DNA from: Ilumatobacteraceae bacterium | GTDB lineage: Bacteria; Actinomycetota; Acidimicrobiia; Acidimicrobiales; Ilumatobacteraceae | Direction: 5' to 3' | DNA: 33,693 nt | Assembly (NCBI GenBank): GCA_025451395.1 | Contig: JANWKM010000073.1 | Coordinates: 1 to 33,693, forward strand | In this document: one piece after another, positions 25,377 to 27,099 of the stretch | Numbering within the stretch: position 1 is the first letter of the stretch | Layout of the letters: every line of letters begins with the position of its first letter | Made by a program: the position numbers and the translations under genes | Notes under the pieces: generated by a model | The model's input: only the letters and a program-made list of their open reading frames with translations | Databases searched by the model: none | Told to the model about the DNA's origin: nothing

Positions 25377-25401
25377 CTGGTCAGGCTAACGAGCGACCTG
25401 A

Positions 25402-25436
25402 TCGAACGCCTGTTCTTGACACGAACGGGCGTTCGT
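25402..25436 (+). promoter_or_regulatory. Two tandem LexA/SOS-box-like palindromes
   Basis: TCGAAC-GCCT-GTTCTT at 25402..25417 and ACGAAC-GGGC-GTTCGT at 25421..25436, both matching the CGAAC-N4-GTTC core. Confidence 0.65.
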
Positions 25437-25452
25437 GCTCAACTGGGCCGCT

Positions 25453-27099
25453 GTGCAGCGCTCGCTCGACGATCTGGGCACGCCGCTCGCCGATGTCACG
25501 TTCTGCGTCCTCGACATCGAAACGACGGGAAGCGACCGTGGTGGCGACCTGATCACCGAGATTGGCGTCGTCAAAGTGCGACGCGGCGAGTGCCTGGGCA
25601 CGATGGCCACACTGGTCAACCCTGGCAAAGCGATCGCTCCCAGCGTCGTGGTACTTACCGGCATCACACAGTCGATGGTGGCCACTGCACCGCGCATCGA
25701 ATGCGTGTTGCCCTCGTTGCAAGAGTTCGTCGGCGATGCGGTCATCGTCGGCCACAACGTCGGCTTCGACATGGGCTTCATCAACGCCGCCCTGCTGCGC
25801 AGCGACCGCGCATCGTTTCGCAACATCGTCATCGACACGTTGCCTCTCGCCCGCCGGTTGATGCGCGACGAAGTACCCAACTGTCGACTGGGCACGCTTG
25901 CCACTCGTCTCCGGCTCGATCACAAGCCAACGCACCGCGCGCTCGACGACGCGCTCGCCACCACCGACCTGTTGCACCTGCTGCTTGAGCGCGCAGCTGG
26001 CCTCGGCGTGTTAGGTCTCGATGATCTGGTGTTGCTACCAAAGATGGGCGGCCATCCGCAGGCGGGGAAATTGAAGCTCACGCATCACTTACCGCGCGCG
26101 CCGGGCGTGTACCGCTTCCTCGGCGCGTACGACGAGGTTCTCTACGTCGGCAAGGCCACCAATCTGCGCCAACGCGTGCGCAGTTACTTCGGAAGCGATG
26201 ATCGCCGCAAGATCGGGCCGCTGTTGCGAGAGACGCAGCGACTCGCGCACACCGCTACAAGCGATCCGATCAGCGCCGAGATACTCGAGCTTCGGTATCT
26301 GCACCGCTTGAATCCGCGATACAACCGCGTGGGCACTACGTGGCAGAAGTACTGCTATGTGCGCATCACGACCGAGGAGGCATGGCCGCGACTCGTGATC
26401 ACTAGCGAACCTGCGGCTACCGGTGTGCACATCGGGCCACTCACTTCACGATCGACGGCCACCGCCTTCATTGAGGCGGTGCAATCGGCACTTCCCATTC
26501 GGCGGTGTGGCACCAAGATCGGCAAGAACTACAAGCCCCCCGTCGACGCAGTGCCGTGCGCCGGCGCCCGACTCGGTGTCGCGCTGTGCCCGTGCAGCGG
26601 CACAGCCGACGAGGCGACCTATTGGCGGATTGTTGCGCAGGTTGTCGCGGCCTGCACGACCTCGCCACAGCTTGTACTCGATCCGCTGTGGACGAAGATT
26701 GCAGAGCTCGCCGCCGGTCGCCGCTACGAGGAAGCGGCGAGCATGCGCGACCGCGCGACGGCGTTCGCGGGCGCCATCACTCGCCAGCGCCGGTTCGACC
26801 AACTTCGCTCGGCCGGTGAGGTCGAGGTGCAGATCCACGACACCACGCTGCAGATTCGCGATGGCGTGCTGCTGACTGTGCAACAGCCGGGCCAGTTCGC
26901 CACCGAACTCGAGCTCGCGCCACCGGTGGCGCCAGCATTTCCGGTGACCCTCCCCCGCCAGGCCGCCGACGAGGTGTTGTGTCTCGCTCGCGCCATCGAC
27001 CGCGCCAGTTTTCACGCACGACTGCACAGTTGCACTGGCGAGTGGGCATGGCCGACGACTCCGGTACCTGAGGTCACTCGTCTTCATGCTGCTGCTTGA
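25453..27099 (+). CDS. DnaQ-like DEDDh exonuclease fused to a UvrC-type GIY-YIG endonuclease domain
   Basis: FCVLDIETTGSDRGGDLITEIGVVKV, VGHNVGFDMGFINAALL, HRALDDALATTDLLHLLL (DEDDh), then LPRAPGVYRFLGAYDEVLYVGKATNLRQRVRSYF (GIY-YIG). The alternative GTG at 25435 lies inside the second SOS-like box. Confidence 0.92.
   Translation: MQRSLDDLGTPLADVTFCVLDIETTGSDRGGDLITEIGVVKVRRGECLGTMATLVNPGKAIAPSVVVLTGITQSMVATAPRIECVLPSLQEFVGDAVIVGHNVGFDMGFINAALLRSDRASFRNIVIDTLPLARRLMRDEVPNCRLGTLATRLRLDHKPTHRALDDALATTDLLHLLLERAAGLGVLGLDDLVLLPKMGGHPQAGKLKLTHHLPRAPGVYRFLGAYDEVLYVGKATNLRQRVRSYFGSDDRRKIGPLLRETQRLAHTATSDPISAEILELRYLHRLNPRYNRVGTTWQKYCYVRITTEEAWPRLVITSEPAATGVHIGPLTSRSTATAFIEAVQSALPIRRCGTKIGKNYKPPVDAVPCAGARLGVALCPCSGTADEATYWRIVAQVVAACTTSPQLVLDPLWTKIAELAAGRRYEEAASMRDRATAFAGAITRQRRFDQLRSAGEVEVQIHDTTLQIRDGVLLTVQQPGQFATELELAPPVAPAFPVTLPRQAADEVLCLARAIDRASFHARLHSCTGEWAWPTTPVPEVTRLHAAA

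Follow-up and report, generated by a model that had tools for sequence, protein, structure and literature searches.

E. coli Cho is an SOS-induced homologue of UvrC: it corresponds to the N-terminal GIY-YIG nuclease of UvrC and its gene is under LexA control, whereas uvrC is not. The gene analysed here would resemble cho in these respects, but Cho lacks the DnaQ exonuclease domain to which the GIY-YIG nuclease is joined in the present protein. The fusion belongs to the family NF005907/PRK07883 ('DEDD exonuclease domain-containing protein'), which we take to include M. tuberculosis Rv2191. It passes the family cut-off (490 bits versus 454), and the regulatory box described below is absent in part of the phylum.

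The actinobacterial LexA/SOS regulon, described in S. venezuelae (PMC9380542) and in mycobacteria, relies on the box CGAAC-N4-GTTCG; lexA, recA, dnaE2 and alkB are shared targets, and some promoters carry multiple boxes. The same box occurs at our locus, with the difference from S. venezuelae that a gene for a DnaQ–GIY-YIG fusion is among the few exact targets in the genome; this gene was not found in the main text of the S. venezuelae paper (PMC9380542), which contains none of the words 'uvrC', 'exonuclease' and 'DnaQ'. In Bacteroidetes, both SOS motifs of that group predict a GIY-YIG domain exonuclease (COG0847) as a target (PMC8565304). A predicted target of this kind is common to both networks; the Bacteroidetes use another LexA-like repressor family and other motifs, and belong to another phylum. 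Searches combining Rv2191 with LexA, or DnaQ with GIY-YIG and LexA, returned nothing relevant, and no report of an SOS-controlled GIY-YIG exonuclease in Actinomycetota was found in the literature searched, to which subscription journals mostly did not belong.

The DNA analysed, called the window throughout, is a stretch of 33,693 nucleotides from an Ilumatobacteraceae bacterium. Our main reading is that the promoter of its DnaQ–GIY-YIG nuclease gene is under LexA (SOS) repression, to which we give a probability of roughly 0.93.

Boxes and promoter layout at the nuclease gene

The features of the locus are as follows.

25402-25417, no strand: LexA (SOS) box 1, TCGAACGCCTGTTCTT (TCGAAC and GTTCTT around GCCT); overlaps the -35 element at its right end
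25421-25436, no strand: LexA (SOS) box 2, ACGAACGGGCGTTCGT (ACGAAC and GTTCGT around GGGC); exact consensus, fills the -35/-10 spacer
25416-25421, plus strand: putative -35 element TTGACA; TTGAC invariant and at a fixed distance in 16/16 nearest relatives
25439-25444, plus strand: putative -10-like element TCAACT, placed by its spacing of 17 bp from the -35; a weak match
25453-27099, plus strand: gene for a DEDDh (DnaQ-type) exonuclease fused to a UvrC/Cho-like GIY-YIG nuclease, 548 aa, GTG start, NF005907
24303-25376, minus strand: divergent gene with a C-terminal NYN_YacP domain (PF05991, 4.7e-16), a possible second target
25383-25388, minus strand: TAGCCT, -10-like element for the NYN gene, whose ATG lies 6 nt further on; the distance to the 14-mer of box 1 is 14 nt

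A first-pass annotation of the window had reported two tandem boxes, 3 bp apart, at 25402-25436, and both their sequence and their coordinates are exact: two 16-bp sites separated by a 3-bp gap lie between the divergent NYN and DnaQ–GIY-YIG genes. The exact pattern CGAACN4GTTCG occurs only once in the window, as box 2. Six matches with one mismatch were observed versus 2.7 expected, so that a lone degenerate match proves nothing; the case for the boxes was built on the exact site, the pairing, the genome-wide distribution and the conservation, rather than on one-mismatch matches alone.

Orthologues of the gene at 25453-27099 were gathered, with their upstream DNA, from named genomes and a set of 198 belonging to the order. 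The 16 nearest relatives, the window included, all follow the arrangement CGAACN4GTTC-TTGAC-(1-2 nt)-CGAACN4GTTCG-NNN-TNNNNT-(5-9 nt)-GTG/ATG, with a -35/-10 spacer of 17-18 bp. Box 1 adjoins the -35 and box 2 fills the spacer, so that in all 16 sequences the predicted LexA operators overlap the promoter. The TTGACA-like -35 had already been drawn across the boxes in the first-pass annotation, at the correct position, and is backed by this geometry. Among more distant relatives TANNNT is frequent at the place of the -10. Order-wide, 70 of 76 boxes are followed by an in-frame ATG or GTG 12-20 nt past the box 14-mer, versus three out-of-frame start triplets in the same interval for the other two frames combined; the layout is regular enough to call start codons from the box alone. 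Seven loci (L041, L042, L086, L102, L117, L126 and L138) have paired boxes 15 bp apart centre-to-centre, not 19-20.

The conserved geometry of box, promoter and start codon suggests that the mRNA of the nuclease gene is probably leaderless, with its 5' end at or near GTG 25453, 8 nt after the putative -10. Since the promoter fits a leaderless transcript, we take this GTG as the start codon, as the first-pass annotation had preferred. GTG 25435, in the same frame, was rejected: it lies within box 2 and 5' of the predicted transcription start. The M. tuberculosis lexA transcript is itself leaderless (PMC2897130).

It had also been proposed that the NYN gene (ATG 25376, minus strand) may be damage-regulated, in which case the two boxes could serve as a bidirectional operator for both genes. 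Within the family, and frequently outside it, the nuclease gene has the NYN_YacP gene as a conserved divergent neighbour (L026-L043), and TANNNT stands 6-8 nt before the NYN start, in a leaderless-like arrangement, in 16/16 nearest relatives. In the window, TAGCCT lies close enough to box 1 for the likely NYN -35 to fall within that box, and the corresponding distance is 13-14 nt in 9 of the 16 nearest relatives (window included). However, it is 23-72 nt in the other seven, and in more distant relatives hundreds of bases separate the NYN start from the box; on the nuclease side, by contrast, the geometry is fixed. The overlap of box 1 with the likely NYN -35 is seen in the window, but its spacing is not conserved. 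We consider a bidirectional operator less likely than not; co-regulation of the NYN gene in the window is possible.

LexA boxes in the same genome and genus

Repression of the nuclease promoter by LexA presupposes that the boxes are those of the genome's own LexA. The genome of the window (G000, a 1.8 Mb, 63% complete bin) was searched for exact CGAACN4GTTCG. Six sites were found, every one at an SOS or repair gene: two at lexA and one each at dnaE2 (18 nt 5' of the ATG), uvrB (15 nt 5' of the GTG), alkB and the nuclease gene (box 2). The alkB site, on contig C131, lies 19 nt 5' of the ATG of an alkB-like 2OG-Fe(II) oxygenase gene, with TAATTG in between; an rRNA methyltransferase ORF at this box was dropped, as the alkB-like gene on the opposite strand fits better. 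The uvrC gene of this genome has no box. Looser CGAACN4GTTC sites are mostly intragenic and were left out of the argument.

The only lexA of the genome, on contig C147, encodes a full LexA (wHTH plus S24 peptidase; LexA_DNA_bind, 6.8e-25). Its upstream region (L005:1486-1617) holds six boxes of graded quality, with 0-2 mismatches; the last of them overlaps a TACGCT -10-like element 6 nt before the lexA ATG. Comparison with lexA of the same genome had been proposed by the first-pass annotation as a check on its match to the actinobacterial LexA core, and it came out positive: because its own lexA carries these boxes, two as exact copies, the LexA box of this genome is the motif that the annotation named.

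Two genomes of the same genus extend this picture, their dnaE2, uvrB and alkB being named from near-identical N-terminal sequences. G376 has exact boxes at dnaE2, alkB, uvrB and the nuclease gene, plus one probable chance site. G102 has them at lexA, dnaE2, recA and the nuclease gene, plus other sites, some probably due to chance. recA was not found in the 63% complete bin of the window; it is present in G102, where exact boxes precede it. G376 (97% complete), which has the other boxed SOS genes, yielded neither recA nor lexA; the two genes lie about 8 kb apart in G102, and a single assembly gap may explain the absence of both. G102 also has a 246-aa gene (L230:1528-2265) whose ATG lies 13 nt after an exact LexA box, and its position near dnaE2 suggests that it is imuA-like.

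These sites bear on the possibility that the palindromes are bound by another regulator sharing the motif. Half-sites can be common to related S24 or HTH repressors, and our evidence comes from sequence only. Yet identical boxes stand at lexA itself, dnaE2, uvrB and alkB of the same genome, and LexA of S. venezuelae has the same motif, tCGAAC-N4-GNNCGa (PMC9380542), which makes another regulator very improbable.

Conservation of the boxes among orthologues

Boxes with at most one mismatch were counted in the interval -150 to +15 of 80 distinct orthologues besides the window, from Acidimicrobiales and kin; no two upstream regions were identical. A box is present in 75 of the 80 and exact in 70, and 34 carry two or more. 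With the window included, the counts are 76/81 versus a mean of 1.1 in dinucleotide shuffles, and 71/81 versus 0.07 for exact boxes. Upstream regions of uvrC from the same order (n = 20) gave one one-mismatch match and no exact one. One-mismatch matches are not rare in the window, but chance palindromes in GC-rich DNA are refuted by this conservation of both position and sequence, and their probability is negligible.

Five of the 80 orthologues have no box in the interval. At one locus (L083, genome G134) the full boxes are lost and a half-like site (ACATCTGTTCG) is left after TTGACG; this genome has lexA. Outside the order, an exact box was present in 4/4 genomes sampled from the same class. 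In other classes of the phylum a box lies within 300 bp of 36 of 54 orthologues and is exact in 31 (0.5 and 0, respectively, in mononucleotide shuffles of the 54). No box was found upstream in an Actinomycetota branch with other N-termini, and the box-less proteins include a group that aligns from about residue 10 on, with seemingly longer N-termini.

Given the presence of these sites upstream of almost every relative of the gene in the order, its induction by DNA damage is very probable. We envisage that LexA dimers on the two operators, covering the -35 and the -35/-10 spacer, would keep RNA polymerase off the promoter. DNA damage would lead to RecA filaments and to self-cleavage of LexA, whereupon a leaderless mRNA could be made from at or near GTG 25453.

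The nuclease and its place in the damage response

The encoded protein has an RNase_T/DEDDh domain at residues 19-173 and a GIY-YIG domain at residues 218-291, with the PolC exonuclease 2p1j and the UvrC GIY-YIG domain 1yd6 as nearest solved relatives. Both active sites are intact: the DEDDh residues D21, E23, D106, H161 and D166 and the GIY-YIG residues Y220, Y231, K234, R241, E279 and N291 are invariant in 47/47 orthologues. A UVR (UvrB-binding) motif was suspected by eye at residues ~415-440 and was not reported by Pfam.

By analogy with the SOS-induced Cho of E. coli, the enzyme might act as a damage-induced back-up incision nuclease alongside UvrA and UvrB, its exonuclease trimming from the nick, a tentative proposal that falls a little short of even odds. 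It is also conceivable, although we lean against it, that SOS control is ancestral in Actinomycetota and that the enzyme is a 'cut and trim' machine, coupling GIY-YIG incision to its own 3'-5' resection, that would supplement a non-SOS UvrC.

SOS control of a COG0847 GIY-YIG exonuclease was already predicted in Bacteroidetes; the conservation found here is unusually strong. Taken together with that report, our results suggest that DnaQ–GIY-YIG fusions are recurrent SOS repair enzymes. They would make an uncharacterised, widespread nuclease, presumably that of the Rv2191 family, part of the response to DNA damage in a large Actinomycetota group whose members are mostly uncultured.
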